Assembly: GCA_016206925.1 (NCBI GenBank)
Contig: JACQQS010000018.1
Location: 1 to 62,286, forward strand
Reading direction: 5' to 3'
Origin: Candidatus Omnitrophota bacterium
Lineage (GTDB): Bacteria > Omnitrophota > Omnitrophia > Omnitrophales > JACQQS01
DNA: 62,286 bases
The number at the start of each line of letters is the position of its first letter. The stretch's first letter is position 1. Below, one piece after another: positions 3 to 42,826 of the stretch. The notes under the pieces are model-generated. The model worked only from the letters and a program-made list of their open reading frames with translations, made no database searches and was not told where the DNA came from. Position numbers and translations under genes: made by a program.

Positions 3-3000
3 AAAACGACAACCGTGGATATCCGCTATGACACCGTAGGCGGTGCCGGTGGTTATCCTGTGGGTCAAACCATTGCCACGCTCCAGCCCGTTGCCAATGG
101 TACTGCGGGTGTAACATGGGGACCGATTCCTGATGCGATTGGCACGAATGTCAAGGTCAAGGTATTTGATGCCGCCTTCACGGATGTGTTTGGCGAATCT
201 CCTGCTTTCAAGATCATGGGCGGACTGACTCTTACAGGACCAACGGGCGGAGTGACGAAAACAGCTACTACGGACACCGACGTGACTTGGAATTTCAACG
301 GCACGATTCCCAACGTCAACGTCTATTATGACGCTAATACTACCGACGGCATTATTTGGATTCTTGTAGGAACGAAGAACCAAACAGGCTGCACCGGATC
401 GTGTTCCTATAGTTGGACGACACTAAATACTCCGGTTTTTCCCTCGACAGTGGGTAATAATTACCGAATTAAAATAACAAATGCGGCCGATGAAACAGAC
501 GTTCTTTCAGAAGGAACCGATTTCAAGATCGGTGCTCAGTTCGACGTCACGTTCCCTGAAAATGGTGCTCCGGTTTATGCCGAGGATGTCAATACGAATA
601 TCACTTGGACAACACCGAAGGGTTCTGGAATCAACAAAATCCATCTCTATTACAGCAATAGCGACTTGAGCACGAGCGCAGTAGATCCTACGACTTTGGG
701 ATGGATCCAAATTACGCCGGCCTTAGGTATTGCCAACAACGGCTCTTATACTTGGAATCCGATCCCAAGGGGGCTTACAGAATTAAGCACCGTGAATCAC
801 CGCGTCTTGATTACTCAGTATGATCCCGCCAACCAAGATCAAGTCTTTAATGTGAGCGGCGGCACGGTGTTCCCGATCTTGGGCAAACTGATTGTTACGA
901 CTCCAAGCACGGGTTCTGAATCTTGGGGTGTTAACACGACTCAGACTATCAAGTTCAAAAAACAAGGCAACCTGCAATCCGCCGAACTTTACTATTCGTA
1001 TGATGGCGCTGCCTTGAACTATGTAAAGATCAAAAGAGCCGATCTCACCACGGTGGTGGATATTTCCGACGCCACCGGTGTTCCCGACGCCCTGGGAAAT
1101 TATTCCTTTCCCTGGTTCCTTGATCCGGCTATCACGAGTCTGACGAGCGGCTTTTCGGGCAGAATCAAGGCCAAAGCGGTTACCCCCTCGACTCAAACCT
1201 CTGTGGAAAGCCTTCCGAGCACGGCCATTGAAGTGAAAGGAACTGTTACGGTTCGTGCGCCCGGCGGTGTGGACGATCCGACTCCTCTTCCGATGGAAGT
1301 GGGGCAGAGTTACTTGATCAAATGGGACAAATTTGGAGCCGTCAATAACATCCAAATTCATTATTCCACTGCAGGATGCGGAGTAGGGAATAATTTTGAT
1401 ACCAACCCCATCATCTTTGACGGGGCTTCCACGCCGTCCAGTTTTAACTGGACCGTTCCAAATAATATTGGAACCAATGTGTGTATCCGTGTCCGGCACA
1501 AAGAGAATACTAATGTCAATGACGTCTCCGACGTTGTCTTTCGCATCAAAGGGAAACTTCAACTCACGGAGCCGGAGGCGGCTGGCCTTAGCTATACGGT
1601 AGGCACGACCCAAACCATCCGCTGGACTACCACCGGCACCTTTACGCCCGTCGAACTTCATTATGACAAGGACGGCAATTTTGCCACGACGGCGGACACT
1701 TTCCCCGTTCTGCCATTCTCTACAGTTACGAACTGCAGCCCGGTTTCCCCGGCCATTACCTGCACCGCTACGGCAAGCTTTACCATCGAAGACAAAATCA
1801 GCGCGGCCACTAAACTCCGTGTTCGGGGTACAGGAGCTGATTCAGATGTGGTGTGGATTTCCACCAATCCCTTTAAGATTGTGGGTGCGCTTGATGTCAC
1901 GGCACCAGAAGCAGGCCAGCTCTGGTATGTAGGGGAGACCAACCGAGTTATCACGTGGGACGCTACGGGAACGGTCACGAATGTCAACATCGGATATAAG
2001 ACTTCAGCCGGAGCCTCTTGTAACTATACAGCCATCGCGGCCAATGACGCCGGTCACGTTGCAGGAGCCAATACCTTTAACTGGACGGCTGGGGTAGCGG
2101 ATGAGAAGACGGAAACGGCCTATATTTGTATTCAGGATACAAACTTCACAGAAATTACCAATGTGAGCGCTGCGCCCTTTTCTATTCGCCCTCTTTTGAC
2201 GGTTACCTCACCGGTGGCGGCTCAGCGCGTCGTGGTAGGCTCCAATAACGCTGGTTTGGTCAAGTGGACTCGTACGGGAACGAAGACGACTACTATTGAC
2301 ATTAAATATGACACGAACGATGGAAAGGGCGCAGACGGTATCGCCGGGAATGCAGATGACTATGCAGGTACGATTGCTACATTGGTGGATGCCTCAACCG
2401 GCGCGACCGGGGTGGCTTGGAACGGCGTTCCGGATTCCATCAGCAATCTGGTGCGGGTAAAAGTGGTTGATAACTCAGCGTCGCTTGTGTTCGCCGTTTC
2501 TCCAGCCACATTTAAGATTGTCGGCTCCCTTACCTTCAGCGAACCTCTGGCCGGGACTTATTTGAATGTGGGACAAACAGGCGTCCTCATTAAATGGACG
2601 AAGTCGGGATCTTTTGCCAATGTCAACATCTGGTATTCCACCGATGGTGGAACGAACTTCACGACCGAGATCACTCCTTCCACTTCCGCCGCTTTGCTTC
2701 AGTATAGCTGGCCGAGCATTCCAGCTACACCATCGAATAACGTCGTGATCCGGATAGCCGATACAGGCGATCCCGAGACCAAAGCTCTCTCTGGTGTTCT
2801 GCACATTCACCGAGTCTACGACATCACGCAGCCGGAGAGCGGTGAAGTTTTGGCGGTTGGAACTTCGTACGATATCAAGTGGAATACGACAGGGGGCACC
2901 GCGGCTAATGTGAAATTGCAGTATGCTACAAATGGAGGCGGCGCGGGGGGGAACTGGGTGGATATCCCCGGGGCAACTAACTTGGTCAACACGAACCCGG

Positions 3001-6000
3001 GAAGTTTTGCTTGGACGGTCCCCGACGCCGTTTCGAGCCAGGTCAAAGTAAGGGTTGTAGATTTGTCGGATACCGACAATTGGAACGAGTCTGGTACACA
3101 AAATAATCCTTTGCTGGGTACTTTCAAGATTCGAGCCGACCTGCGCATGGTGTCACCCAATGGAAATGTGAACCCCAATTTGACGGACAAGCTGCTCGTA
3201 GGTTCGACCTCTCCGATCCAATGGTTCCTGAATGGTACGATGAGTACGGTCAAACTACAGCTCTCCGTGGGTGGAGGAGCTTACGCGGATATTACAGGCG
3301 CGACGGCCCTTAATGCTGCCGGCGGGCAAACGGGTTGCGCGCCTTCTCCTTGTTGGAACTGGACCATTCCGAACAATATCTCTCAACAAGTCCGAGTGAG
3401 AGTGGTGAATGAAGCAGATACGACCGTGCTTGATTCGTCCGATTTCGATTTCGCAATTCGGGGCGGATTTACTTGGAGCTATCCGACCGTGGTCGGTACC
3501 GTTTTCAACTCCGGTGAGACGAAAACTGTTACCTGGACCACGACGGGAAGCATGGCTAATGTCAACCTTGAATACTCTACAAATAACGGGTCTTCATATG
3601 CGGCCATGCTGGATTCAGGGGGGCTTCCCGCCACAAACATTATCAACACAGGGACTTTTAACTGGCCCGTCCCCACAAATGTGGTTTCGAAAGATGTCTT
3701 CGTTCGGATTACAGGCACGAACGATCCGAATTCAAAAACGGATACGGTAAAAATAAAAATCGCTGGTGTTTTAAATCTGAGCGCTCCGGTAGGAGGTGCT
3801 CGATGGGGAGCAAACACCACGCAGCAGATTAAATGGACGACCACCGGACCGATTGCCAATATCAAGATTGAGCATTCGTTAAATGGCGGGACAAGCTGGG
3901 TGACCCCGGCCATTGCCGATACGGTCGCGGCCACAGGACAAGCCGGCTGCACACCGGCCCCTTGTTTTAACTGGTTAGTTCCTACCACAACATCTCCTAA
4001 TGTTGTCATTCGCTTGGGCGATGTGATAACCGACAGTGGAACGACTGCAGTTGTCTCGTCGGTATTCAAAATCGTAGGGAGTTTCTCGTTTACCGCGCCC
4101 ATCGCCACCACGATTTGGCCGGTTACCACGGGTGAGATTGCCAATACCACGCAGAATATTGTCTGGTCCACGATTGGCGGTGTTGCCCAAGTGAATATTC
4201 GTTATTCGGCCACAGGCGTAGCACCCTGGACTTTTGTCGTTGGGCCCCTTGCGGATGGCGGGCTCGGGGGATCTTATGCGTGGACTGTTCCGGACGCAGT
4301 CGGAAACACAGTGAAGGTCTTAATTGAAGATGCCACGGATCCCTATCCAAACACGTACACCGAGTCTGCTGCGTTTACCGTCAGAGGGGACCTGAAGTTT
4401 ACCGCGCCGGTTGGAGGAGAAAAGTGGGGAGTTGCAGGCGGGGTATCATCGGCTTATAAAACCATTAGCTGGCAGAGGAATGGAACGATTGCCCAAGTTT
4501 ATCTTGATTACTCCAAATCGGGAGCTGCGGGTCCCTGGATTGCAATTTTGAACGCAACGAGCGGCCTGGAGCATCCCAATTCGGGAAGCTTCGCGTGGGA
4601 TGTGCCTAACGATATGACGCTTCAAGGCCGGATTCGTATTCGGAACGTGTCCGGACCGGCCGTAGAAAGTATTTCGCCCACTGATTTCAAGATCATGGCA
4701 AGATTTGATGTAATGGCTCCCGATGGGGGAGAAATTCTCCAGGCGGGCCAAAATTATACGATGACTTGGAATAAATGGGGGACGGCGGCAGCGAATGTGA
4801 AAATTGAGCTGGCATTGAATGGAAATGTGGGTTTACCCACTTACGATAAGCTTATTGCACTCAGCACTCCCAACGATGGAAACCACCCCTTCACCGTCGA
4901 TCCGAACTGGATTACGCCTAATGGCAAGATACGGATCTATGACGTGAACGATATCGATAGCGTTGATGCTTCTTTCAGCACTTTTGCGATTCGAGCTGTC
5001 TTTACGTTCGTTGAACCCGTTGCTACCACGCCGGATTTACAAGTCGGGCAGCCTTTCTTAATTGTTTGGGCCAAGCAAGGAAATATTGCCAATGTCAAAC
5101 TGGAATATTCACCAGGCGGTAATAATTTCTTAACCGACATCCGTCCGATTGAGCCTACTACAGACGGAATTGTGCCTAACACGAACGCCGCCGGTTGCAA
5201 TCCAACCGAAGGCTGCCATTCTTGGACGGTTCCGGATGTTGAGGACAATAAAGATGAAAACATCAAACTTCGCATTCGTGATCCCAATGATGCGGGCGCA
5301 GAAGTTATTTCCGTACCCTTTAGAATTATTCCCAAATTTGCGTTGACTTTCCCTAACGGCAATGCTGATGCCAGCCTTACCGACAAGTTGAAAGTGGGAC
5401 ATCGGGTAGGCGATACGGCGACCCCCTATACCATTACATGGACCAGCTCTTCTAGCCAAATAAAGACTCCCTTTGTGGTACTGCGTTATTCCACGGATGG
5501 CGGCGGGACCTGGCCTGCTGGCAAGGTGATCGCCAATACCGACAACGACGGTTCTTACGTGTGGACTACTATTAACGGAGGTGTTCCGGACGACATTTCA
5601 TCTCAGGTTCGGATTCGGGTGGAGGATGCTTCTGACGGGGTCGGAAAAGACGATTCAAACTTCAACGTCAAAATCATCTCCAATTTCAAACTCAACGCGC
5701 CAAATGGTGGCGCGGTGTATGAGGTGAGTGATCCCCTGACCGCCACGTGGGAAAGTATTGGTACAGCCGCTAATGTTGAGATCGCTTATTCCACTGGAGG
5801 AGCCGGCTTCACAAGTCCGGTCGTGATTTTGGCGACGACACTGAATGATGCAACAGAGGCTTGGCCAAGTGGGGTATCTGACGCCATTAGCTCCACCGTC
5901 CGTGTACGTGTGAAGAGCTTGACCGACGATGGGTTCGACATTTCGGATACCGACTTCAGGATTCGCGGTAAACTTGCGGTGACGGCTCCCGGTGCTGGAG

Positions 6001-9000
6001 CCCGCCTAGCTATTGGTCAACCCTACACGATTACCTGGACTGCCACCGGTACGATCCCGAACGTCAACATCAAATACGATATTAATGATGGAAAAGGAAC
6101 TGACGGGATTGCCGGAAATGCGGATGACTATCCCTATACAATTGCTACCAGTGCAGCCGGTTGTACTCCCGTTTCCCCCGCATTGACTTGTTCCAGTTCT
6201 TTTAATTGGTTGAGCGTTCCGGACACTGCCACTGCCTTGGCGCGGATCAAGATTATCGATTCAAGGGCTAGCGAGAGTGATGTGATTGGAATCTCGCTCG
6301 CCTTTAATATCATCGGTAACTTCACTCTTCTTGCACCGAATGGGAACGAAGACTGGCGCGTGAATACAACACAGACCATTCGATTTAACTGGGGCGGCAC
6401 GATGGCTAATGTGGACTTTTATTACACCAAAAATATGGCCGTTGACCCAGCAACCATTCCCACCATCGACTGGATTTCTATTGGTTCCGCGAACTATGGG
6501 TTGGGAGATGGAAGCGGAACACCCTTACCAGAACGTACTTTCTCTTGGTTGATTCCGAACGACATTTCACCCAATGTTCGCGTCAAAGTAGCTTTTGCCG
6601 GTGATTCGAGCGTCTACGATGTTTCAAACAATTTCTTTAAGATCCGCGGGTCGTTTACCCTGACAACGCCCAACGGTAATACCGATGTCAGTCTTACCGA
6701 CCGTTGGGTCACGTTTGATCAAAAAACCATTCAGTGGACTACGACGGGTGGGATTCCAAACATAAAATTACAGTATTCCAGCGACGGATTCCTAAGCGAT
6801 ATCAATACGATCGGCACGCCGACGATCACGAACTGCACGGCTGCTGCAACACCACCTTATCAGTGCACGGGTACTTTTAGTTGGGTCATTCCCGACCGCG
6901 TGTTGAAGAATGGAAGCAACTTTACGGTGGCTACGGATCTGCAGGGCACTTACCCGGGACCCAATATGGTTAAGGTCCGCGTGACAGATGTCAATGACTT
7001 GGGTGTTTACGATGAATCGGACAATTTGTTTAAGATCGATTACTACAAAACGACATGGGATATCCGGGATCTTTTGACCAATGCACCACTCAGCGGTTTA
7101 ACCGTAAAAGTAGTAAAAGACACCGATCCCAATTACATCATTTGGAATCAGGCCGGTGTTACGACGAGTCCCGCAGTTGTTAAATATTTTCCTTTTGGGA
7201 CCTGGGTTGCTACGTGGACCAAGACTGAATACACCGATATGTCTGTTACGGTAAATGCGAGTCAGGACCGCGATTATTCAGCATCTCCGCTCGGTCCCTT
7301 ATTCATGCAGACTTCTACCGTCCATATTTGGGAATCTATCTCCCAAGTTTCCTACAATGCCGATGCGGATACTTTGGGTGTCGTATCCTGGTTGATGAGA
7401 GATGGAAGCAGGGTGCCGGGGCCTATCGAGGCGTTTTACAAAATCATTGATCAGGGTACTGTGATAGCTACGCTGGGAAGTCCCACGGCTGCCAATCCCA
7501 AGAGTGCTATCGTAGGAACGGGTTGGGAAGGTTCTACAGCGACGCCTCCGGCGCCGCATGAGCCGGCTCTGCCAGACTCTTCGGGTTATTTCAAGTTTAC
7601 GCTTGCCGCGACAACCGGGCTGCAAGCCGGAAAAGTTTATGTAGGTGAAGCGCAGATCAAAATTGGTACAGGCGGTGTCTTTAAAACCCCGATCTCTTTT
7701 GAAGTTTCTACTGCCAAGACACTCGAAGAGGTGAAAGATCTGGTGAATTCACAATTGAACAAACCTCTTTCGCAAGTAGAAGCAGCGGTCACCAGTGCTG
7801 TTTCGGCGCTCATTAACGCCCAGACTTCAACTATCCAAGCACAGCTTAACACGCAAACGACGACCATTGATACCAAGATGAGCGAACAAACGACTGCAAT
7901 TAAGGCAACACTGAATTCGTTTGAGACGACTGTTAGCACGTCGGTAGCGTCACTCAAGGCCGGCGCGGACCAAAGTCTGGCCGCTGCGGCAGAATTGGAA
8001 GCCACGGCGCTCAGGCATTCATGGAAAGCGGGTCTTTCACCCAACCCGGCTTTGCTCGGAGATACTATTACTATTCAGGCACAAGGTGTCCCGGGTAAGT
8101 TCCCCATCATTAGCGTTTATAACCATCTAAATAAAGAGGTCGTTGCAAGCGGGGCTTTGGTTGAAGATCCGGCCCAGCCAGGAAACTATAATTTTTCATT
8201 TAAGGTCAACAGCGGGGACTTTACGGCCGGTAAGGCATTTACTTATATTGTTTCGGAGGATGTGACAGGAGGATTGACCGCAGGCTCGGGTTTCGTCGAG
8301 AGTTCCTCACTAACGTCCATCGCCGGTCTTGCTGCTTCGGCGCCGGGAGCTGAATCGGCCGCCAAACAGGCTTTGGATGCCATCCGTGGACTTGAAGCTA
8401 TTATGTCAAAAGGCGGCGACGTCTCCGGCGTCAAAGATACTGTGCGTCAGGTTCAGACCGCCGTGAATGAAATTCCCGCATTAATTGCCAAGGCCATGGA
8501 CAGGCCGGATAGTCCCATGGCCCAGATGAAGGGCACGGTTGAAGATATTCAGAGGAAATTAAAAGAACTAGCCGGGAAAGAAGGTTTCGATTTCAAAGAG
8601 ATTTTCAAGCAAAGCCTGAGCGATTCGCCGGATATTAAAGAGATCCGTCAGGTTTCGGATTCTATCAATGATGGTGTTGCGGTTATGAATGCCGTGGTGA
8701 AAGCCAAGTTAGGGGGAACGGATGAGCCCATTGTGATGTCCTCCTACTCGTCCGGCAGCGTGGTTTTGAGAGTGGTCGCCGTGAACCCTTCGGATAAGAA
8801 GCCTCAAGACATACCTATTAAGATTTATCTGCCGCAGGAAGCCATGCCCCACGACATTTTGAACAAGGGCGACCTGGAATTGGGTTATGATTCCGAGAAG
8901 TCGCAATACTTTGTTTTCAAAGATAAGGTTACCTTGGCGGCCAAGGAAACCAAAGTATTCGAGGTTGAGTTGGAGGATATCTGGTTTGTTGCGGACGATA

Positions 9001-9506
9001 CCTTAAAGTCATTGAGGACGCGCACCGAACATATTATAGAGCGATTGAAGGACACGGATTATTATGAATCAGCCGGCCTGATTGCCCAGACGATTTACGG
9101 AAGGGTGGATCAAATTACGGTGTCACAGGCGGATGAGTCGATCAACAAGGAACTTCATATCGGTATGTACCGTTCCAATATGAAAATTGTTGAGCGGATC
9201 AAGGAAGACATCGGCCGGCTTGAGAAAATTCTCGTTGCGGTCGGCGCTCCGCCCGCGCCGGATATTTTGGCCGAATCTAAGTTGAACCTAAAGACACCCT
9301 CAAAGGCGACCACCTGGTTCATCATTCTTGCCATACTTGTTTTCATCGGACTGCTGGGCGCCGTTTTCTTCTTTACCTGGCAGTCCCAAGTAAAGCTGTT
9401 TTCCGATCTCTCATCGAAATCGAGAAGCGCAGTATTTCCGGAATTAGATGTATTTAAGCATGGAACACCCCAAGAAGAATCGGCTTCTCAAGATGAGTCA
9501 GGCTAA
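3..9506 (+). CDS. Giant Ig-like repeat surface protein with C-terminal membrane anchor (5' end outside window)
   Basis: The frame is open from the first bases of the window, so the true start lies upstream; at least 3167 residues are present. About 21 full repeats of roughly 108 residues run from about nt 215 to 7040. Each starts near an 'FKI.G.f.v..P' boundary and contains 'I.W...G...NV.i.YS' and 'W.vPd.is..v.vRv.D', a beta-sandwich pattern typical of Ig-like adhesin modules. After the repeats come a different beta domain, Thr/Gln-rich helical segments (about 7720-7990), more helices, a second beta domain (about 8720-8990), a helical stretch, one hydrophobic helix (about 9313-9378) and a polar tail of about 40 residues. 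I infer a periplasmic or extracellular filament anchored in the inner membrane with its C-terminus in the cytoplasm. Its last 14 bases overlap the ATPase epsilon gene, implying translational coupling. The ligand and exact function are unknown. Confidence 0.85.
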   Translation, partial: KTTTVDIRYDTVGGAGGYPVGQTIATLQPVANGTAGVTWGPIPDAIGTNVKVKVFDAAFTDVFGESPAFKIMGGLTLTGPTGGVTKTATTDTDVTWNFNGTIPNVNVYYDANTTDGIIWILVGTKNQTGCTGSCSYSWTTLNTPVFPSTVGNNYRIKITNAADETDVLSEGTDFKIGAQFDVTFPENGAPVYAEDVNTNITWTTPKGSGINKIHLYYSNSDLSTSAVDPTTLGWIQITPALGIANNGSYTWNPIPRGLTELSTVNHRVLITQYDPANQDQVFNVSGGTVFPILGKLIVTTPSTGSESWGVNTTQTIKFKKQGNLQSAELYYSYDGAALNYVKIKRADLTTVVDISDATGVPDALGNYSFPWFLDPAITSLTSGFSGRIKAKAVTPSTQTSVESLPSTAIEVKGTVTVRAPGGVDDPTPLPMEVGQSYLIKWDKFGAVNNIQIHYSTAGCGVGNNFDTNPIIFDGASTPSSFNWTVPNNIGTNVCIRVRHKENTNVNDVSDVVFRIKGKLQLTEPEAAGLSYTVGTTQTIRWTTTGTFTPVELHYDKDGNFATTADTFPVLPFSTVTNCSPVSPAITCTATASFTIEDKISAATKLRVRGTGADSDVVWISTNPFKIVGALDVTAPEAGQLWYVGETNRVITWDATGTVTNVNIGYKTSAGASCNYTAIAANDAGHVAGANTFNWTAGVADEKTETAYICIQDTNFTEITNVSAAPFSIRPLLTVTSPVAAQRVVVGSNNAGLVKWTRTGTKTTTIDIKYDTNDGKGADGIAGNADDYAGTIATLVDASTGATGVAWNGVPDSISNLVRVKVVDNSASLVFAVSPATFKIVGSLTFSEPLAGTYLNVGQTGVLIKWTKSGSFANVNIWYSTDGGTNFTTEITPSTSAALLQYSWPSIPATPSNNVVIRIADTGDPETKALSGVLHIHRVYDITQPESGEVLAVGTSYDIKWNTTGGTAANVKLQYATNGGGAGGNWVDIPGATNLVNTNPGSFAWTVPDAVSSQVKVRVVDLSDTDNWNESGTQNNPLLGTFKIRADLRMVSPNGNVNPNLTDKLLVGSTSPIQWFLNGTMSTVKLQLSVGGGAYADITGATALNAAGGQTGCAPSPCWNWTIPNNISQQVRVRVVNEADTTVLDSSDFDFAIRGGFTWSYPTVVGTVFNSGETKTVTWTTTGSMANVNLEYSTNNGSSYAAMLDSGGLPATNIINTGTFNWPVPTNVVSKDVFVRITGTNDPNSKTDTVKIKIAGVLNLSAPVGGARWGANTTQQIKWTTTGPIANIKIEHSLNGGTSWVTPAIADTVAATGQAGCTPAPCFNWLVPTTTSPNVVIRLGDVITDSGTTAVVSSVFKIVGSFSFTAPIATTIWPVTTGEIANTTQNIVWSTIGGVAQVNIRYSATGVAPWTFVVGPLADGGLGGSYAWTVPDAVGNTVKVLIEDATDPYPNTYTESAAFTVRGDLKFTAPVGGEKWGVAGGVSSAYKTISWQRNGTIAQVYLDYSKSGAAGPWIAILNATSGLEHPNSGSFAWDVPNDMTLQGRIRIRNVSGPAVESISPTDFKIMARFDVMAPDGGEILQAGQNYTMTWNKWGTAAANVKIELALNGNVGLPTYDKLIALSTPNDGNHPFTVDPNWITPNGKIRIYDVNDIDSVDASFSTFAIRAVFTFVEPVATTPDLQVGQPFLIVWAKQGNIANVKLEYSPGGNNFLTDIRPIEPTTDGIVPNTNAAGCNPTEGCHSWTVPDVEDNKDENIKLRIRDPNDAGAEVISVPFRIIPKFALTFPNGNADASLTDKLKVGHRVGDTATPYTITWTSSSSQIKTPFVVLRYSTDGGGTWPAGKVIANTDNDGSYVWTTINGGVPDDISSQVRIRVEDASDGVGKDDSNFNVKIISNFKLNAPNGGAVYEVSDPLTATWESIGTAANVEIAYSTGGAGFTSPVVILATTLNDATEAWPSGVSDAISSTVRVRVKSLTDDGFDISDTDFRIRGKLAVTAPGAGARLAIGQPYTITWTATGTIPNVNIKYDINDGKGTDGIAGNADDYPYTIATSAAGCTPVSPALTCSSSFNWLSVPDTATALARIKIIDSRASESDVIGISLAFNIIGNFTLLAPNGNEDWRVNTTQTIRFNWGGTMANVDFYYTKNMAVDPATIPTIDWISIGSANYGLGDGSGTPLPERTFSWLIPNDISPNVRVKVAFAGDSSVYDVSNNFFKIRGSFTLTTPNGNTDVSLTDRWVTFDQKTIQWTTTGGIPNIKLQYSSDGFLSDINTIGTPTITNCTAAATPPYQCTGTFSWVIPDRVLKNGSNFTVATDLQGTYPGPNMVKVRVTDVNDLGVYDESDNLFKIDYYKTTWDIRDLLTNAPLSGLTVKVVKDTDPNYIIWNQAGVTTSPAVVKYFPFGTWVATWTKTEYTDMSVTVNASQDRDYSASPLGPLFMQTSTVHIWESISQVSYNADADTLGVVSWLMRDGSRVPGPIEAFYKIIDQGTVIATLGSPTAANPKSAIVGTGWEGSTATPPAPHEPALPDSSGYFKFTLAATTGLQAGKVYVGEAQIKIGTGGVFKTPISFEVSTAKTLEEVKDLVNSQLNKPLSQVEAAVTSAVSALINAQTSTIQAQLNTQTTTIDTKMSEQTTAIKATLNSFETTVSTSVASLKAGADQSLAAAAELEATALRHSWKAGLSPNPALLGDTITIQAQGVPGKFPIISVYNHLNKEVVASGALVEDPAQPGNYNFSFKVNSGDFTAGKAFTYIVSEDVTGGLTAGSGFVESSSLTSIAGLAASAPGAESAAKQALDAIRGLEAIMSKGGDVSGVKDTVRQVQTAVNEIPALIAKAMDRPDSPMAQMKGTVEDIQRKLKELAGKEGFDFKEIFKQSLSDSPDIKEIRQVSDSINDGVAVMNAVVKAKLGGTDEPIVMSSYSSGSVVLRVVAVNPSDKKPQDIPIKIYLPQEAMPHDILNKGDLELGYDSEKSQYFVFKDKVTLAAKETKVFEVELEDIWFVADDTLKSLRTRTEHIIERLKDTDYYESAGLIAQTIYGRVDQITVSQADESINKELHIGMYRSNMKIVERIKEDIGRLEKILVAVGAPPAPDILAESKLNLKTPSKATTWFIILAILVFIGLLGAVFFFTWQSQVKLFSDLSSKSRSAVFPELDVFKHGTPQEESASQDESG

Positions 9507-9744
9507 TCCTATAGATGTATTGGTTGTAACCCCCCAAGCAATTCTTTACCGCGGACAAGCTAGTAGTGTAACTCTTCCCGGCGAAGTGGGTATATTCGAG
9601 GTTTTAAGCAATCACAAGCCGCTACTGACATTGCTCATCTCCGGCCACGTCATGATCGATAATAAGGGTATACCGATCAGGCGGGGAATCGTAAAAGTAG
9701 TTCAAAATAAAGTGTTTGCCATTGTGGAGGAGAGCAGCAATTAA
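9493..9744 (+). CDS. atpC: F1-like ATPase epsilon subunit, beta-sandwich domain only
   Basis: This 83-residue protein matches the N-terminal beta-sandwich of the F1 epsilon subunit: the 'VVTPQ...YRG.A..VTLPG.VG.FEVL.NH.P' pattern is intact and the chain continues to a 'VKVVQNKVFAIVEE' strand. The usual subunit is about 130-140 residues; here the C-terminal two-helix domain, which in bacterial enzymes inhibits ATP hydrolysis, is absent. ATG 9493 lies inside the last codons of the giant surface gene, so translation is probably coupled. Epsilon as first gene of the operon is unusual; in standard atp operons it comes last. Loss of the inhibitory helices suits an enzyme that works only in the hydrolysis direction, which is an inference. 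Confidence 0.88.
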   Translation: MSQANPIDVLVVTPQAILYRGQASSVTLPGEVGIFEVLSNHKPLLTLLISGHVMIDNKGIPIRRGIVKVVQNKVFAIVEESSN

Positions 9745-9967
9745 TATCTCAGGAAAAGGTTTCGAACTCATTATCATCTTTACGATCGCAATTCTGGGAC
9801 CCTCCGCGATCATCGCTGCGGGAGGTTTTGCCAGTATTACGGCATTGGGGCGAAACCCGTCCGCGGCGCCAAAGATATTTACGGCGATGATCGTTTTACT
9901 TCTTTTTGGAACAGCGATCGGGGTTATTGCGCTATTGGTTTTGTTTCAACTGTACGCACCGGATTAA
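9740..9967 (+). CDS. atpE: F-ATPase subunit c-like hairpin lacking the ion-binding carboxylate
   Basis: Two hydrophobic helices are joined by the polar loop 'RNPSAAPKIFTAM', a clear match to the c-subunit loop (usually RNPEA..KIFT.M). In ordinary c subunits the essential Glu/Asp lies eight residues after that Met; here the stretch reads 'MIVLLLFGTAIG' and the position is Thr. I see no Asp or Glu within either membrane helix. The protein should form a hairpin, perhaps a ring, but should not carry protons or sodium. Start is uncertain: no ATG or GTG fits. ATT 9740 has a good GGAGG-type site at 9726-9732 and gives 75 residues, the usual c length; TTG 9716 or 9722 are alternatives giving an odd basic N-terminus. 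It overlaps the end of epsilon. Confidence 0.8.
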   Translation: MNISGKGFELIIIFTIAILGPSAIIAAGGFASITALGRNPSAAPKIFTAMIVLLLFGTAIGVIALLVLFQLYAPD

Positions 9968-9996
9968 AAGCCCTCCTACTCAACCAGAGGAAAGTC

Positions 9997-10728
9997 ATGA
10001 TCGTATTTGCTTTTTTGTTTATTCAGCTTGCGATCGCCGGAGGCTTGATCGTGCTTCTCAGGCATATCATGAGAAAGCATTATGGTTCTGCCTCAAGCCG
10101 CCTTGAGATATTGACGCAGGACGCGATCAATAAGCTGGACGATGCCAAAAGAAAGGTTGATGAAGCCAATAAATATTTCGCGGAGGTCCAGGTAAAGGGA
10201 AAAGAGGCAGGTGAGCAGGCCAGGCAGCAACTGACGAATGAAGGAATTAAGGAAAAGCAGGACCTGATTGAGCAAGCGCGTAAACAAAGCGAGGAGATTA
10301 TGCAGCGCGCAAAGATGACGGCCGAATCGCTTACGCAGGAGCTTGAATCAAAGGTTCAGAAATTAGCTGTTGAACGGGCGTGTGAAATAATCCAGAAGGT
10401 TTTACCGGGAAAGATGAGCAGCGAAACACATTCCGAATGGGTGGGGGAATTGCTGGAGGGGCCCTTTAATGAGCTCGACCGGATGAATATTTCAGAATCG
10501 GCGAACGGAATTGAGGTTGTCACTGCATTTCCTTTAAAGGCTTCCGAAAAGCAAAAGCTTGAGGAACGACTAAAGGAGAAACTGAAAAAAGCAGTTAAAT
10601 TGACGGAAAAAGTCGATCCCAGTCTCATTCTCGGCGTTCGTCTAAAAATCGGTCAAATTGTCATGGATGGGTCGTTCAAATTTACCCTGGAAGAGGCGGT
10701 GCGTCATGCCGAAGCTCGAAACGGTTGA
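9997..10728 (+). CDS. F1-like ATPase peripheral stalk, b-delta fusion
   Basis: This 243-residue protein begins with one membrane helix (residues 1-25), then a long charged heptad-rich segment (about 35-140) like the b-subunit stalk. The C-terminal third resembles the end of the delta subunit, including 'LILGVRLKIGQIVMDGSFKFTLEEA', the strand-turn-helix that closes delta in standard enzymes. Fused b-delta chains are known in some bacteria (for example mycobacteria), normally next to a separate b. Here it is the only stalk gene, so a homodimer would have to supply the whole peripheral stalk. ATG 9997 follows a GAGG site. The end overlaps the alpha start at 10706 by 23 bases. Confidence 0.82.
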   Translation: MIVFAFLFIQLAIAGGLIVLLRHIMRKHYGSASSRLEILTQDAINKLDDAKRKVDEANKYFAEVQVKGKEAGEQARQQLTNEGIKEKQDLIEQARKQSEEIMQRAKMTAESLTQELESKVQKLAVERACEIIQKVLPGKMSSETHSEWVGELLEGPFNELDRMNISESANGIEVVTAFPLKASEKQKLEERLKEKLKKAVKLTEKVDPSLILGVRLKIGQIVMDGSFKFTLEEAVRHAEARNG

Positions 10729-12211
10729 TTTGCGTCCGAAAAAGCACTTCGATATCCGCGAAATAGGGCGCGTTGAGACCGTCAGAAAATTCATCGTGAT
10801 CGGACGAGATCTTCCCTCATGCATCAACGGTGAAGTTGTTGAATTTGCCAATGGCGAACGCGGGGTTGTGATGGGATTCAAAGATGATAAGGTGCAGATT
10901 CTGGTGATGGGTTCGGCTACTGAAATCCGAAACGGAGATGAAATTTATAATCGCGGAGAAGAATTGCGTGTACCTGTCGGAAAGAATTTCATCGGAAGAA
11001 TCGTAAGCGGGATCGGAAATCCCGTGGATCGCGGAAGCGCCATCGAGCCCGACGATTTTTATCCCGTTTTCCGCGAAGCGCCGGGTGTCATGGACCGCGT
11101 TCCGGTAAAGGAAACGCTTGAAACCGGAACGATCTGCCTGGACGCCGGAATTCCGGTTGCTTTGGGACAAAGGCAGCTTCTGATCGGCGATCGGATGACC
11201 GGGAAAACGACGGTGGCCATCGATGCCATTCTGAATCAGAAAAGTACGGGCGTCATTTGCATTTACTGTTGTATCGGAAAACCGTATGTCAGCCTGATGA
11301 AGCAGCTTCATTTATTAAATGAGCGCGGCGCAATGGCCTATACCATTATTGTAAACGGAACCTCTTCCGCCCCTGTGGCGGAGCAATATTTAGCGCCATA
11401 CACGGCCTGCTCGCTCGGCGAGTTTTTCATGCACAACGGTCAGGATGTATTGGTGGTGTTTGATGATTTCAGCAAGCATGCCTGGGTGTATCGGGAGATA
11501 TCCCTTCTTCTCGAACGCGCTCCCGGCCGCGAGGCGTACCCCGGCGATATTTTCTACATTCATTCTCAGCTTGTTGAACGGGCCGGCTATTTAAAGCCCG
11601 AATTAAAAGGCGGATCCATGACTTTCCTGCCGATCGTCGAAATTCTCCAGGGCGATGTGACGGGCTATATTTCCACGAATCTGATTTCCATGACCGACGG
11701 CCAGATTTATTTTAATTCCAATCTTTTTAATAAGGGACTGCGCCCGGCGGTGGATTTCGGTTTGTCGGTTTCCCGTATCGGCAGCAAGGCCCAGTGGCCG
11801 GCCGTTCGCGAAGTCAGCAAGAGCCTTCGCATCGATTATCTGCAATATCAGGAATTGCTGCAGATGTCACAAATTCGCGCCTCAGCTTTGTCGAAAGAGG
11901 CGGAGACAAAGCTGAAAAGGGGCGCCATGATGACGCAAATTCTTACCCAGGATAAGAACAAGCCGGTGCCTATAGAATATCAGGTGCTGGTGCTGTTTGC
12001 GCTTTCCAAAGGATTGCTCGATTCTCACCCGCCGGCGCAAGTGAGAGAGTTTGTGGATGAATTCAATACGTTTATTCAAACAGCCGATCCGGAAATTCTG
12101 ACGAAGCTTCGAACGGCCAAGGAGCTTTCTCCTGAAATGAAGAAGAAAGTCGAGGAATTGATCAAGAGTTATTTTGAACACAAAGTCTTTAAGAAACCGG
12201 CAGCAAAATAA
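10706..12211 (+). CDS. atpA: F1-like ATPase alpha subunit
   Basis: This is a 501-residue alpha-type chain. The P-loop 'GDRMTGKTT' is complete, the 'GLSVSRIGSKAQ' segment carries the arginine finger that acts on the neighbouring beta site, and 'RAPGREAYPGDIFYIHS' is the usual alpha signature region. The N-terminal helix that normally binds delta is shortened and replaced by 'MPKLETVDLRPKKHFDI'. I chose ATG 10706 because it has a GGAAGAGG-like site upstream and begins close to the first alpha beta-barrel strand; the open frame extends back to 10658, but that would overlap the b-delta gene further. The hexamer partner is the beta gene at 13053. Confidence 0.93.
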   Translation: MPKLETVDLRPKKHFDIREIGRVETVRKFIVIGRDLPSCINGEVVEFANGERGVVMGFKDDKVQILVMGSATEIRNGDEIYNRGEELRVPVGKNFIGRIVSGIGNPVDRGSAIEPDDFYPVFREAPGVMDRVPVKETLETGTICLDAGIPVALGQRQLLIGDRMTGKTTVAIDAILNQKSTGVICIYCCIGKPYVSLMKQLHLLNERGAMAYTIIVNGTSSAPVAEQYLAPYTACSLGEFFMHNGQDVLVVFDDFSKHAWVYREISLLLERAPGREAYPGDIFYIHSQLVERAGYLKPELKGGSMTFLPIVEILQGDVTGYISTNLISMTDGQIYFNSNLFNKGLRPAVDFGLSVSRIGSKAQWPAVREVSKSLRIDYLQYQELLQMSQIRASALSKEAETKLKRGAMMTQILTQDKNKPVPIEYQVLVLFALSKGLLDSHPPAQVREFVDEFNTFIQTADPEILTKLRTAKELSPEMKKKVEELIKSYFEHKVFKKPAAK

Positions 12212-12217
12212 AATTAC

Positions 12218-13072
12218 ATGTTAGAACTGACCAAAGTAAAGAAAAACATCGAATTTAACGATCGCTTCAAATCCATTCTAGAGGTGTTGAAATCGATCGC
12301 CGTTTCACAATTCCATATGCTTGAGAGAAAGTTAAACATATTCGAACCGTTTGATCATCTGCTTCAGGATTTCTTTGATTCCATTGATACGAATCAAATC
12401 AATCATCCTTTGCTTCAAGGCGGCAACTATGCCAAAGCCGTTATTGCCGTGACATCGGACCAAGGATTATTAGGAGGCCTGAATATGCGGGTAGTATCTG
12501 CCGCGCTCAGTCTGCTCCGCCCCAGCCGCGATTATTTGGTCATCATAGGCGAACAGGGAAAAGTGTATGCGCGACAGGGAAAAACCCCTTTCACAACATT
12601 TCCCGGTGTCCATGACTATGAACGCCATAAACAGGCCCTGTCTCTGCGTAATTATCTTTTCGAAAAGATCAATCAAAAGAAATTTATGTCCGTTCAGGTG
12701 GTTTATCCGCACGCGATCTCGCTCGTCAATCAGAAAATCGAGCAGGCGACGTTGCTTCCACTGCCCAGAGATTCGGCGGCAAGCGCCAGTGATATCGACC
12801 TGTCCCAGGCCATTCTCGAATCTTCGCTGGTGCATATGCTTGAATTTTTGGCCTACCTGAGAGTCGGCTCCCGCCTGGAGGATATTTTCGGAATTAGCCG
12901 GGTGGCGGAAATGGCCGCGCGATACATGCGGCTTGAAGAAAGCACTCAGAAAATTCAGGAAATGAACAGGAAATTGAAACTTCAATATTTCAGGCTCCGG
13001 CATGCGGTAATCGATCAAAGCATGCGCGAGCTGTTTTCGGCAAGGATGCTTTATGCAGAAGACGCCTTCTAG
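12218..13072 (+). CDS. atpG: F1-like ATPase gamma subunit, divergent
   Basis: This 284-residue chain is recognisable as gamma by position between alpha and beta, by length and by the central 'SDQGLLGGLN' motif (usually SDRGLCGGLN). The ends are divergent. The 'ITKAMKMVA' signature in the N-terminal helix of normal gamma is replaced by 'ILEVLKSIAVSQFHMLERK', and the C-terminal helix lacks the usual 'ITKEL.EI..GA.A'. These two helices form the coiled-coil shaft inside the alpha-beta ring, so the shaft surface has changed while the globular fold remains. It starts 6 bases after alpha and its end overlaps beta by 20 bases. Confidence 0.88.
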   Translation: MLELTKVKKNIEFNDRFKSILEVLKSIAVSQFHMLERKLNIFEPFDHLLQDFFDSIDTNQINHPLLQGGNYAKAVIAVTSDQGLLGGLNMRVVSAALSLLRPSRDYLVIIGEQGKVYARQGKTPFTTFPGVHDYERHKQALSLRNYLFEKINQKKFMSVQVVYPHAISLVNQKIEQATLLPLPRDSAASASDIDLSQAILESSLVHMLEFLAYLRVGSRLEDIFGISRVAEMAARYMRLEESTQKIQEMNRKLKLQYFRLRHAVIDQSMRELFSARMLYAEDAF

Positions 13073-14459
13073 AAATGGCTGCCAAGGGAAAGTTGTCTCC
13101 GTTCAGGGGCCCGTTGTTGATGTGAAATTTGTTGCGGCGGACGAAGTGCCGGGCGTATACAGCATGATGACCGTTGAAACCATTGACCGCCGTCCGGTTT
13201 ATTTGGAAGTGGCCGAACACGCTCCGGGGAATGTGGCGCGGTGCATTGCCATAAACTCCACGCAAAATATTCAGCGTAACGCGGCGGCGAACTATTCCGG
13301 AAAAAGTATTGAAGTTGGCGTGGGCGATTCTATGTATGCCCGCATCGTGAACGTTTTGGGACAGCCCATAGATCAAAAAGGGCCCATAGCCAGCAAACAA
13401 AGCAGACCGATCCGTTCCGCTGGTACGGATGCCAAAATTCAGGACAGCACACAAACCGGTAAGCGGTATGAAGTGCTTGAAACGGGGATCAAAATCATCG
13501 ATCTCCTTTTCCCCCTGGTCAAGGGAAGCAAGACCGGTGTGCTCGGCGGGGCAGGACTGGGGAAAAGTATTATTACGCTTGAAATTATCCATAACATTGT
13601 TACGAAACATCAAGGCACCTGTGTTTTTGTAGGTATTGGAGAGCGTATCCGTGAGGGAAACGAGCTTTTCTTCGAGCTGTCAAAACATGGAATTCTAGAC
13701 AAGACCATGATTGTTTTCGGTCAAATGGACGAACCGCCGGGAGCACGTTACGGGGTTGCCATGACCGGAGCGGCGCTTGCGGAATCGCTTCAACGTGAGA
13801 ATAAGGATGTGCTTTTATTCGTTGATAACATATTCCGTTTCATTCAGGCAGGGGCCGAGATTTCGACATTGCTTGGGCGCGTACCGTCGGAAACCGGTTA
13901 TCAGCCGACCTTAATTTCCGAAGCAAGCGAGTTTCACGAGCGAATTCGAAGCGGCTACGGAGCGGGCGGTTCCGTAACTTCCGTTGAAGCTGTCTACGTG
14001 CCGGCTGACGATCTCACCGATCCGGCCGTTGTCGCTATTTTCACATTTCTTGACTCGATCATGGTGCTTTCCCGCGAGCGCGTGGCCATGGGCCTTTATC
14101 CGGCCATCGATCCTCTGATGTCTTCAAGTGCCAATTTGGATCCGGATATTGTGGGGCACAGACATTACCGCATTTCGCAGGAAATCCTGAAAATCTTTCA
14201 TAAATATGAAGAGTTACGGAAATTGGTGATGGTGATCGGCATCGATGAATTATCGCCGTCTGACCGCTTGCTCTATGACCGCGCGCGCAAGCTTCAAAAC
14301 TTTATGACCCAGCCCTTTTCCGTAGCAGAGGCATATACGGGGAAAAAAGGCTATTATGTTACATTAGAAGAAACCTTGAAGGGCTGCGAAAGCATATTTG
14401 ACGGCAAGTGCGACAAAACGCCCGAGGAAGCGCTCTACATGACAGGGCCTTTAAGTTAA
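13053..14459 (+). CDS. atpD: F1-like ATPase catalytic beta subunit
   Basis: This 468-residue beta chain has the full catalytic set: P-loop 'GGAGLGKSI' (Ser replaces the common Thr and is acceptable), catalytic Glu in 'VGIGERIREGNE', 'DNIFRFIQAGAEISTLLGR', and 'YVPADDLTDPA'. The C-terminal lever normally reading DELSEED reads 'DELSPSD', so two acidic residues that face gamma are lost. The enzyme should hydrolyse ATP. ATG 13053 overlaps the gamma end. This is the last gene of the operon; no subunit a (atpB), atpI or N-ATPase accessory gene is present between the giant gene and gspE. Confidence 0.94.
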   Translation: MQKTPSRNGCQGKVVSVQGPVVDVKFVAADEVPGVYSMMTVETIDRRPVYLEVAEHAPGNVARCIAINSTQNIQRNAAANYSGKSIEVGVGDSMYARIVNVLGQPIDQKGPIASKQSRPIRSAGTDAKIQDSTQTGKRYEVLETGIKIIDLLFPLVKGSKTGVLGGAGLGKSIITLEIIHNIVTKHQGTCVFVGIGERIREGNELFFELSKHGILDKTMIVFGQMDEPPGARYGVAMTGAALAESLQRENKDVLLFVDNIFRFIQAGAEISTLLGRVPSETGYQPTLISEASEFHERIRSGYGAGGSVTSVEAVYVPADDLTDPAVVAIFTFLDSIMVLSRERVAMGLYPAIDPLMSSSANLDPDIVGHRHYRISQEILKIFHKYEELRKLVMVIGIDELSPSDRLLYDRARKLQNFMTQPFSVAEAYTGKKGYYVTLEETLKGCESIFDGKCDKTPEEALYMTGPLS

Positions 14460-14487: not shown

Positions 14488-16680
14488 ATGGCTTCAAACA
14501 TTGATACACTGCTTCAAAAGGCACTCGTTGAAAAAGGATATATTGCCTCGAATACAATCGATCCTGTTGTCATGAAAGCCGCGCAGGCGAGCGGAGGGCT
14601 GGCCTCTTTTCTTGTCCAGCGGGGAATCGTAAAGGAAGAGGATATTCTTAATGTACTTTCCGACCGCCTGAATCTGGAAAAAATAGATCTCCCGCGCACG
14701 CAGATTCAAAAAGCCGCCATAGACAAAGTCCCTTTAAAAGTAGCCGAATATTACAAGTTTGTTCCGGTTAAACTGGAAAATAGGAAGCTTACCGTGGCCG
14801 TTTCCTATCCTTACGATACGAGGACATTGGATACGATTCGAACGCACTTAGGCTGCCAAATCGAGATGGTTCTGGCGCGTGAACAGGATGTTTCGGATGT
14901 TGCGAAAAAATGGTATGGGTTGGGGGCTGGCACGATTGAAAGGATTCTTGAGGCCGGTCCGCAAGGTGAGACGGCAGAGACACAATCGGCCGAGGCTGCT
15001 GAAAAAGTGGAAGATATCGAAAAGCTCGCCGAAGATGCTTCCGTTATTAATCTGGTCAATCAAATTCTCCTGGATGCGTTTCAGAAAAGAGCTACCGACA
15101 TTCATGTAGAACCTTACCGCGGCAAAGTTAAGGTCCGGTACCGTATCGACGGCGTTCTTTACAACACCAACGTTCCTCCCGAAATTAAAAAATTTATCAT
15201 GCCGATCGTGTCCCGCATTAAAATCATGTCGAATCTCAATATCATCGAGAAACGATTGCCGCAGGACGGGCGCGCCATTGTTAAAGTAACGGGCGAGACG
15301 CTTGACCTGAGAATTTCTTCCATCCCTACGCCTTCGGGAGAAAGTATTGTCATCCGCCTTCTGCCGATGCAGCGTCTTTTTAGTTTGGAAAAACTCGGGC
15401 TGGATAAATCCGACCTGGACATTTTCAGCAAGCTCATCAGCAAACCCCACGGCATCGTTTACATCACCGGACCCACCGGCAGCGGAAAATCAACGACGCT
15501 TTATGCATGTTTGAGTTCCATCAATAATGACGAGCGCAAGATTATTACCATTGAAGATCCTGTCGAATATGAGATGGAGGGAGTGACGCAAATTCAGGTT
15601 TTGCCGTCGATAGGGCTTGATTTTGCAAAAGGGCTTAAAAGCATTTTGCGCCACGATCCCGACGTCATTATGGTCGGCGAGGTGCGCGATCTTGAGACGG
15701 CTGAAATTGCCGCGCGTGTAGCCTTAACCGGCCATCTGGTATTTTCGACGTTGCATACCAATGATGCAGCAAGCGGAATTACCCGTCTTGTTGATATCGG
15801 CGTTGAACCGTACCTCGTTGCCTCCAGTGTGGAAGCTTTTTTGGCCCAACGCTTGGTTCGCCTAATTTGCTCCCATTGCAAAGAAGAGGACAAGTCGCAG
15901 CCGGATGCGGTCAAGGAACAGATTGCCCGCGAGCTCGGCCTGCCATCCAAGAAAGACGTAACCATTTACAAAGGAAAAGGTTGTGACAAATGCAATTCTT
16001 CTGGGTTTTGGGGCAGGATTGCCATATTTGAAATTTTACCTGTCGATGAGACGATTCGCCAAATGATCATGCGCCGTGTTCCAGCAGGCGAAGTAAAGAA
16101 AACCGCCGTGTCTAAAGGTATGCGAACCATTAGAAAAAGCGGATGGATAAAGGTTTTGGCCGGGCAGACCACGCCGGAGGAAATCATAGAGGTGTCTCCG
16201 GATGAGGATAAGTCTGCCGGAGAACATTTCCTGCCGAAGGCGGAAGAAGATTTCGGATTTGAGTCTGAATCTGAAGCCGAGGAAGAATCCAGGGAAGGGA
16301 AAAAGAAAAAACCTGGCGCCGAACGCCGCGCATTCAAAAGAATCGATGCAAAGCTGAACATTTGGCACAGCCGCCATTACAAATCTCATTCCGAACTCAG
16401 GAAGGCCGATGACGGCCCGGAGCAGTTTAGCGTCACCAAGAATGTAAGCGCGGGCGGGCTTGTGTTTATTTCCGCCGATTCCATGACTATCGGTTCGATT
16501 GTGGAAATAAAAATAGAGCTGCCCGGCGAAAAGGCGCCGATAGAATGTATTGCCCGCGTGGTACGCGTGGATCAGAAGGATGAAGAGAGCGCATACGACG
16601 TGGCCGTTTGCTTTCTGGATCTTTCCAGCGCCGATCGAGGGAAACTGGATCAATACGTTAATGAGGAAGGCAAAGCATGA
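14488..16680 (+). CDS. gspE: Type II secretion ATPase GspE with C-terminal PilZ domain
   Basis: This cytoplasmic hexameric ATPase powers pseudopilus assembly. Residues 1-150 form an MshEN-like N-terminal domain. The ATPase core has Walker A 'GPTGSGKST' near residue 328, 'DPDVIMVGEVRD' and 'TGHLVFSTLHTNDA'. A zinc motif of two Cys pairs is present ('CSHC' near 462, 'CDKC' near 499). After an acidic linker, residues about 611-730 form a PilZ domain with 'RRAFKR' and 'VSAGG', the two signatures that bind cyclic di-GMP. A GspE carrying its own PilZ domain would let cyclic di-GMP control secretion directly. Its stop overlaps the next gene by 4 bases. Confidence 0.92.
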   Translation: MASNIDTLLQKALVEKGYIASNTIDPVVMKAAQASGGLASFLVQRGIVKEEDILNVLSDRLNLEKIDLPRTQIQKAAIDKVPLKVAEYYKFVPVKLENRKLTVAVSYPYDTRTLDTIRTHLGCQIEMVLAREQDVSDVAKKWYGLGAGTIERILEAGPQGETAETQSAEAAEKVEDIEKLAEDASVINLVNQILLDAFQKRATDIHVEPYRGKVKVRYRIDGVLYNTNVPPEIKKFIMPIVSRIKIMSNLNIIEKRLPQDGRAIVKVTGETLDLRISSIPTPSGESIVIRLLPMQRLFSLEKLGLDKSDLDIFSKLISKPHGIVYITGPTGSGKSTTLYACLSSINNDERKIITIEDPVEYEMEGVTQIQVLPSIGLDFAKGLKSILRHDPDVIMVGEVRDLETAEIAARVALTGHLVFSTLHTNDAASGITRLVDIGVEPYLVASSVEAFLAQRLVRLICSHCKEEDKSQPDAVKEQIARELGLPSKKDVTIYKGKGCDKCNSSGFWGRIAIFEILPVDETIRQMIMRRVPAGEVKKTAVSKGMRTIRKSGWIKVLAGQTTPEEIIEVSPDEDKSAGEHFLPKAEEDFGFESESEAEEESREGKKKKPGAERRAFKRIDAKLNIWHSRHYKSHSELRKADDGPEQFSVTKNVSAGGLVFISADSMTIGSIVEIKIELPGEKAPIECIARVVRVDQKDEESAYDVAVCFLDLSSADRGKLDQYVNEEGKA

Positions 16681-20344: not shown

Positions 20345-20352
20345 GGAAAAAT

Positions 20353-23129: not shown

Positions 23130-23133
23130 GTCT

Positions 23134-24003: not shown

Positions 24004-24440
24004 CTTTGTCATTCCCGCGCCGCTTGATCAACCGGTGCGGGAATGACCGAGGGTTCACACTGATTGAACTCATGCTTGTGGTGATTATCATCGGCGCCTT
24101 GGTAGCCATGGTTTTGCCGCGCATGGCCGGGAGATCGGAGCAAGCACGTGTTCAGGCCGCTCAAGCGGATATCAGTTCCAACATAGCCACCGCACTCAAA
24201 CTTTATGAGCTGGACAACGGATCTTTCCCAAGCGGTGAAGACGGATTGAACGCTCTTCTCAATCAACCGGGAAGCGCCAGAAATTGGAGCGGGCCGTATT
24301 TGGAGAAAAAGCCGCTGGATCCCTGGGGCAGAGAGTATCAATACAAGAAGCCCGGCACGCATAGACCTCACGACTACGACCTTTATTCTTTGGGCAAGGA
24401 CGGGCAGGTTAGCGCGGATGATGTCAAGAATTGGGAATAA
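23979..24440 (+). CDS. gspG: Major pseudopilin GspG
   Basis: This 153-residue prepilin is cleaved after Gly25 in 'NDRG|FTLIELMLVV', with the conserved Glu at +5. The mature part has the GspG hallmarks 'LDNGSFPSGEDGLNALL', 'GPYLEKKPLDPWGREYQY' and 'DLYSLGKDGQ', the last including the calcium-site region. ATG 23979 has GGAGG 5 bases upstream, so the leader is 25 residues, longer than the usual 6-10. Part of it is encoded by a 40-bp palindrome at 24008-24047. The start overlaps the metalloprotease end by 25 bases. Confidence 0.95.
   Translation: MEKLHFRLTLSFPRRLINRCGNDRGFTLIELMLVVIIIGALVAMVLPRMAGRSEQARVQAAQADISSNIATALKLYELDNGSFPSGEDGLNALLNQPGSARNWSGPYLEKKPLDPWGREYQYKKPGTHRPHDYDLYSLGKDGQVSADDVKNWE
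24008..24047. repeat. 40-bp palindrome (GTCATTCCCGC family) inside the gspG leader
   Basis: GTCATTCCCGC and GCGGGAATGAC are perfect 11-bp arms around an 18-base centre that is itself partly symmetric around TTGATCAA. The element lies wholly inside the gspG frame and encodes most of the prepilin leader just before the Arg-Gly cleavage site. GTCATTCCCGC hairpins are common dispersed repeats in many bacteria. Confidence 0.8.
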
Positions 24441-24819: not shown

Positions 24820-24828
24820 ATTCCCTCC

Positions 24829-26488: not shown

Positions 26489-26490
26489 TA

Positions 26491-28053: not shown

Positions 28054-28064
28054 ATAGGAATAAT

Positions 28065-42736: not shown

Positions 42737-42774
42737 CACTCAAGCGCGTGCGCTCGAGTGATTTTTTATTTTTT
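42737..42774 (+). terminator. Rho-independent terminator
   Basis: CACTC-A-AGCG-CGTG-CGCT-C-GAGTG is a stem with one mismatch, followed by a T-rich run (ATTTTTTATTTTTT). It lies 132 bases after pncB and 53 bases before the giant gene start, so it either ends the upstream operon or attenuates the giant gene. The 130 bases before it are very A/T-rich and show nothing else certain. Confidence 0.7.
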
Positions 42775-42826
42775 CCGATCATTTTATGATTTAAAAAGGT
42801 TCGCGAAGACAAGGGGAAATAATCAG

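Follow-up and report, generated by a model that had tools for sequence, protein, structure and literature searches.

A subunit a-less F1-type ATPase beside a giant surface protein gene in Omnitrophota: a candidate mechanical motor

Rotary ATPases are usually viewed as ion machines, and to our knowledge the only known exceptions are those of Mycoplasma. A contig of a Candidatus Omnitrophota bacterium (JACQQS010000018.1 of assembly GCA_016206925.1, 62,286 nucleotides, analyzed in full and hereafter called the window) carries a giant surface protein gene directly followed by the genes of an F1-type ATPase without subunit a. What could such an ATPase drive? We lean towards the view that the cluster encodes an ATP-driven mechanical motor, which acts on a giant surface fibre anchored in the inner membrane and pumps no ions. 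The basis of this reading is the gene set, the invariant catalytic residues, the absence of atpB (the gene for subunit a), the repeated change of the c carboxylate, and the conserved linkage.

The F1 genes and the giant protein

The window starts at base 1 of the contig and the open reading frame (ORF) of the giant gene (3..9506, plus strand, as are all genes located below) runs off the contig start; hence, its 5' end is lost and the protein has at least 3167 amino acids (aa). It is followed by the genes for an epsilon-like subunit consisting only of the beta-sandwich domain (9493..9744), a c-like subunit (9716..9967; the TTG start is uncertain and the conserved core begins at about 9755), a b-delta fusion with an N-terminal transmembrane (TM) segment, a coiled coil, and the C-terminal half of OSCP/delta (9997..10728), and the F1 alpha-like (10706..12211), gamma-like (12218..13072), and beta-like (13053..14459) subunits. 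No intergenic gap from epsilon through beta to the following GspE-type gene exceeded 29 bases. A first-pass annotation of the window had reported an Ig-repeat membrane protein gene overlapping epsilon by 14 bases and this tight order of the subunit genes, and both were confirmed.

Epsilon, delta, alpha, gamma, and beta of the window scored above the Pfam cut-offs, and the c match was weak (18 bits vs. a cut-off of 24). The b part was recognized by its TM segment and coiled coil, together with NCBIfam b models scoring below cut-off. Alpha and beta passed the canonical models (atpA, 524 bits vs. 484; atpD, 547 bits vs. 463). The Walker A lysine of both subunits, the arginine finger of alpha, the catalytic glutamate of beta, and the Walker B aspartate were all present, as had been stated in the first-pass annotation, and these residues were invariant when counted on an alignment of the cluster type (85/85 alpha rows and 83/83 beta rows). 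That annotation had also pointed to the lack of inhibitory helices in epsilon. Indeed only the beta-sandwich was found; however, the respiratory epsilon ORFs of relatives were likewise short (85–94 aa, nine loci), and the short epsilon therefore carries no weight. A further ATP-synt_ab match (94 bits) was observed in the window's own genome at G000:C65:19176-19787 (L005).

The giant protein contains Ig-like repeats up to approximately position 7050, of which three stretches matched Kre9_KNH barely over the cut-off, and then coiled-coil stretches. Its C-terminal anchor domain (8703..9503) comprises a beta-sandwich, a helical coiled coil, one TM helix (9315..9380; extent judged by eye, within helix 201-240 of the modelled piece), and a short cytoplasmic tail. 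W205 and I208 in the TM-helix region were invariant in the anchor alignment. Two giants of relatives were read at both ends; from stop to stop, their frames span 4116 and 4775 aa, and by eye both appear to carry a signal peptide. In one relative, the giant exceeded 10,000 aa with the frame still open.

The anchor, fused to the giant in the window, is a separate protein in many relatives. Among the 71 loci with the anchor, it was located in an ORF of at least 1000 aa in 25 and in a closed shorter ORF in 41; in the other five, the ORF ran into the locus edge. Pfam gave no family at cut-off in the one member with scores, and a weak DUF11 match was the best in 2 of 13 members; of 71 homologues, the four with an organism in the name were all from Omnitrophota. 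AlphaFold modelled the anchor piece of the window as a seven-stranded sandwich followed by a helical coiled coil and the TM helix (mean predicted local distance difference test score, pLDDT, 82), and an unfused anchor as two six-stranded sandwiches (mean pLDDT 78). The extra strand of the fused anchor, modelled with moderate confidence, corresponds to the segment that terminates the unfused giants: the first strand of the modelled sandwich (8730..8750) aligns in place with their C-terminal tail. The tail motif, with its W-F-E residues, ended 24 of 31 unfused giants vs. 8 of 793 other ORFs, the pattern having been drawn from the same data. When a held-out set of 20 loci was used, 19 of which had an upstream ORF, the motif ended that ORF in 15 of the 19 vs. 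0 of 49 other ORFs. The models thus suggest that the C-terminal strand of the giant may dock into the anchor sandwich.

Subunit a and the ion site of the c ring

The absence of subunit a, claimed by the first-pass annotation, was borne out. PF00119 (subunit a) had no match in the window's own assembly (2.0 Mb, 86% complete), and atpB was found in none of the 86 annotated loci of the cluster type, namely 25 from relatives searched with alpha, 60 hand-picked from a c search, and the window. The local atpB model used here derives from 11 respiratory loci and accordingly finds these by construction, so PF00119 served as an independent check. PF00119 was present in 19 of 24 cluster-bearing genomes, always on a contig other than that of the cluster.

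The phylum was then surveyed in 384 evenly drawn Omnitrophota genomes, using query alignments built from the same phylum. With a cut of E 1e-15, set so as to exclude 12 of 179 genomes with weak, seemingly respiratory matches, the c family was present in 167 of them. Of these 167 cluster-bearing genomes, 76 showed no atpB, and 45 of these were at least 90% complete (including G293 at 91% and G089, a single contig). atpB was found in 196 of the 384 genomes, independently of the cluster (Fisher p 0.26), and shared a contig with it in at least two genomes, far apart (approximately 87 kb in G075 and 540 kb in G088). The window's genome contains a V/A-type ATP synthase on contig 70, in which A, B, and D exceeded the subfamily cut-offs and I and C were best matches below their own cut-offs.

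We next describe the c subunit, which the first-pass annotation had regarded as lacking the membrane carboxylate. This holds for the window, where threonine occupies the position, and is not general. Among 90 c proteins from 82 loci, the residue was E in 72, Q in 9, A in 3, T in 2, G in 2, and V in 2, that is, non-acidic in 18. The window clade showed T, A, T, and A where others carry Glu, the stretch being masked in its fifth member, L049. Both G cases were extra copies in loci having two c genes; among the loci with only one c gene, 16 had another residue in place of the carboxylate. In 13 loci the codon at this position was read in a clean frame, giving CAG, ACA, GCG, GCT, GTA, and GCC. As read from their sequences, 14 of 14 respiratory c proteins from relatives had Glu. 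On an alpha+beta tree from a quick search (82 cluster rows and three outgroups), 16 of 81 scored tips were non-acidic, all within one subclade, and the distribution required at least eight changes of state, five of them forced by starred branches; some of these changes could be reversals. Two adjacent c genes, one often divergent, were observed in L142, L149, L150, L153, L157, L163, L179, and L130, and mixed c rings are possible in such loci.

The loss of the respiratory-type ion path would also be expected if the complex were a membrane-bound, non-rotating scaffold, an ATP sensor, or a decaying relic. In the window clade, the four c proteins showed a dN (nonsynonymous divergence) of 0.10–0.14 and a dS (synonymous divergence) of 1.4–4.1 or saturated; dN is low relative to dS and therefore the c gene is still under selection. 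The RNP loop of c was invariant in 18 aligned c proteins, while the ion site varies. Together with the invariant catalytic residues in alpha and beta, these results make a scaffold, sensor, or relic highly improbable.

Conservation, neighbouring genes, and counter-evidence

When 58 relatives were searched with alpha, 53 matched at 1e-60, whether the match was respiratory or not. Of ten loci found with alpha whose organism was named, seven were from Omnitrophota/Omnitrophica (45–73% identity) and one from Levyibacteriota (43%); the other two were distant Thermoanaerobacterium. In the 86 loci, alpha was present in 85, beta in 83, gamma in 86, b-delta in 84, c in 82, and epsilon in 78. The anchor, found in 71, directly precedes the F1 genes where present. 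In the window, as in the four relatives closest to it, the giant overlaps epsilon or ends two bases before it, though the spacing was 17 bases in L053 and approximately 214 in L052. In the phylum survey, the anchor was detected in 154 genomes and together with the c family in 149 (Fisher p 3e-78). The giant as linked partner of the F1 genes, as proposed in the first-pass annotation, is thus conserved across the phylum, but it is not their most constant neighbour.

That neighbour is an assembly ATPase of the GspE/PilB type with MshEN and PilZ domains (14488..16680 in the window), belonging to an operon like that of a type II secretion system (T2SS) or type IV pilus, which was absent from the earlier account. 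A GspE-type gene was found in 83 of the 86 loci and GspF in 75. The three loci without GspE (L063, L068, and L134) end before its position, and, since the contig of L161 stops behind gamma, the GspE-type match there is a 362-aa paralogue located upstream. In the window, a histidine kinase (CHASE/PAS; 16677-19349), a response regulator (19346-19723), an unassigned ORF (19745-20344), and a second kinase (20257-21876) are inserted between GspE and GspF. The T2SS-like genes continue at 21891..28628 with GspF (from 21891), GspG (23979), GspI (24418), GspJ (24829), GspK (25361), GspL-like (26491), and GspM (28065), and a Peptidase_MA-like protein lies between GspF and GspG (23134-24003). The set is tightly packed up to 28628, with the two-component genes inside. 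Beyond two minus-strand genes, 31710..35022 contains an AAA ATPase (31710), GspC-like (32540), and a GspD/PilQ-type secretin (33226).

A candidate was accordingly found for each of GspC, D, E, F, G, I, J, K, L, and M. Of the core parts, GspG alone exceeded the cut-off of its curated NCBIfam model; the rest were nearest to T2SS or type IV pilus models, with scores below the cut-offs, and we therefore use the wording T2SS-like. The secretin scored 256 for PilQ and 242 for GspD, and the GspL candidate matched PilM/PilN models. Seymour 2023 (PMC10066038) named the neighbouring system a type-4a pilus. Apart from a methyltransferase domain at approximately residues 634-739, a 2312-aa ORF farther downstream (42758-49696) gave no Pfam match at E 0.01.

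Several findings on ions and on the anchor weigh against a motor of the kind proposed. atpB was found elsewhere in 91 of the 167 cluster-bearing genomes, and because nearly all assemblies are drafts, its absence from any single genome is soft. Glu is kept by the 72 c proteins mentioned above without any subunit a in the locus, and it occupied 122 of 122 sites in the best 120 c homologues listed. Glu should be dispensable in a ring without contact with ions; the retained residue may be structural, or an unrecognized channel protein may exist. An ordinary ion-translocating F1Fo, supplied with subunit a by the respiratory operon or by an unrecognized gene, would explain both the atpB genes and the retained Glu. 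It would, however, leave unexplained the 76 cluster-bearing genomes without atpB, the independence of atpB from the cluster, the 16 single-c loci with a replaced carboxylate, and the window's genome, which shows no atpB and has its V/A-type synthase. This alternative is strongly weakened and appears improbable.

As for the anchor, 7 of the 31 unfused giants lacked the tail motif, and 18 of the 167 genomes had the c family without the anchor. Among the 15 anchor-less loci, eight are cut off no more than approximately 1.4 kb ahead of their first identified gene, and L158 and L167 have 1.6–1.8 kb upstream with another gene next. The remaining L127, L161, L169, L170, and L171 carry the F1 set and lack an anchor despite ample upstream sequence; GspE and GspF lie downstream in four of these loci, and the fifth, L161, stops after gamma. 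The F1 set thus occurs without a nearby anchor, so the giant is not obligatory. In two of these loci, response-regulator/GGDEF genes were found upstream of F1 by Pfam (L127:9671-10621 and L171:9807-10748), and with the MshEN and PilZ domains of the window's GspE they are hints, read from domain content, of control by cyclic di-GMP (c-di-GMP). Such loci, and the constancy of GspE and GspF, would fit an F1 module that powers or regulates the T2SS/type IV filament machine (secretion, pseudopilus turning, or filament rotation), with the giant as a cargo or separate passenger. GspE-type ATPases, however, normally suffice for such machines; moreover, anchor and cluster occur together in 149 of 167 cluster-bearing genomes, the anchor, where present, stands directly before the F1 genes, and in the window as well as in the four relatives closest to it the giant overlaps or nearly abuts epsilon. 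We regard this alternative as possible, if doubtful.

None of the findings that the first-pass annotation had named as contrary to it was obtained: no atpB completes the operon, the giant linkage is conserved, and a separate V/A-type synthase is present in the genome. Taken together, its observation was confirmed and its interpretation as a whole was partly supported.

Proposed mechanism and relation to known systems

The F1-type ATPase has c as its rotor ring and the b-delta fusion as its peripheral stalk, and it lacks subunit a. In the motor that we favour, it would hydrolyse ATP to rotate the c ring together with gamma and epsilon relative to alpha3-beta3-b-delta. Because there are no half-channels, the torque could not be exchanged for ions. 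The torque or a change of shape would instead pass through the TM helix and periplasmic coiled coil of the anchor to the giant, of which the C-terminal strand is expected from the models to complete the anchor beta-sandwich, covalently in the window and by docking where the proteins are separate. The T2SS-like secretin may let the fibre or its partners cross the outer membrane, and the c-di-GMP-type MshEN and PilZ domains of GspE may gate the machine. In its most specific form, an ion-dead c ring in a rotary F1 would drive the giant fibre across the diderm envelope, with the fibre docked by its C-terminal strand into an anchor beside the ring; this ATP-powered, ion-independent rotary surface motor is put forward tentatively. 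If the motor reading is correct, a full rotor-stator set can be reused for mechanical work, in a phylum-wide F1 that lacks subunit a, keeps ring and stalk, and has repeatedly lost the ion site. It would also give a testable role to the giant genes of Omnitrophota, the function of which was called poorly understood by Seymour 2023 (PMC10066038), and account for the second F-ATPase reported there.

Compared with respiratory F-type enzymes, the cluster shares alpha and beta that pass the canonical atpA and atpD cut-offs, but it has neither subunit a nor a separate delta, and its c is below cut-off. On the alpha+beta tree, the cluster forms one clade (Shimodaira-Hasegawa-like approximate likelihood ratio test, SH-aLRT, 99) that is distinct from the respiratory, N-ATPase, and canonical rows, and the Omnitrophota respiratory operons form another clade. 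Grouping with N-ATPase was not rejected (approximately unbiased test, p 0.125). The best NCBIfam match of the b-delta fusion was the N-ATPase b model, below cut-off, and the order epsilon, c, b, alpha, gamma is common to both once Z, I, and a are omitted: the N-ATPase order beta-epsilon-Z-I-a-c-b-alpha-gamma (L187, L188, and L189) becomes that of the window when these three are removed and beta is moved last. The N-ATPase operons examined, however, contain subunit a, AtpZ (AtpQ), and AtpI (AtpR), which the cluster lacks, and no gene fits between epsilon and c in the window because the two overlap. The alternate-F1F0 models were not reached (alpha 481 bits vs. a cut-off of 750, beta 490 vs. 752, gamma 25 vs. 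282, and b 52 vs. 225).

The Mycoplasma type 2 (G1-ATPase, gliding) and type 3 (F1-like X0, MIB-MIP) ATPases resemble the cluster in having an F1-like head without a normal Fo and large surface proteins, and have been proposed to transmit force across the membrane (PMC12994834, consulted in part). They differ in that type 3 has no b homologues and both types have 12-TM and 2-TM membrane proteins (PMC12994834), whereas the cluster combines c and b-delta with an anchor that spans the membrane once, and its host bacterium has a secretin. Scores fell short for the Mycoplasma MMOB1660/1670 (396 bits vs. 600 and 415 vs. 850) and MSC_0618/0619 models (380 vs. 570 and 295 vs. 520). Judged by these curated models, the cluster is outside the Mycoplasma type 2/3 and N-ATPase families. 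A single Mycoplasma type 3 row with a very long branch joined the cluster clade at SH-aLRT 92, not starred. The link to Mycoplasma drawn by the first-pass annotation is one of functional analogy, and common descent may or may not lie behind it.

The first-pass annotation had also considered the system possibly undescribed, which was not the case. In every class of the phylum, Seymour 2023 (PMC10066038) had already described F-type ATPase clusters, termed 'symbiotic' and of type 2/3, next to type-4a pili, and had suggested that they serve attachment and motility. These share with our loci the phylum and a second, non-respiratory alpha and beta beside genes of the type IV filament type, and are very likely the same loci. 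The text consulted rests on alpha/beta trees and pilus annotation, and it contains no mention of the absence of subunit a, the c carboxylate, the b-delta fusion, the anchor, or the adjacency of giant and ATPase. The literature covered, which included few subscription papers or preprints, yielded no report of the lack of subunit a, of the altered c residue, or of the anchor. At the level of sequence, what is new here is that the anchor is often a separate protein, and that the unfused giants usually end in a short strand motif at the very point where the two are fused in the window.

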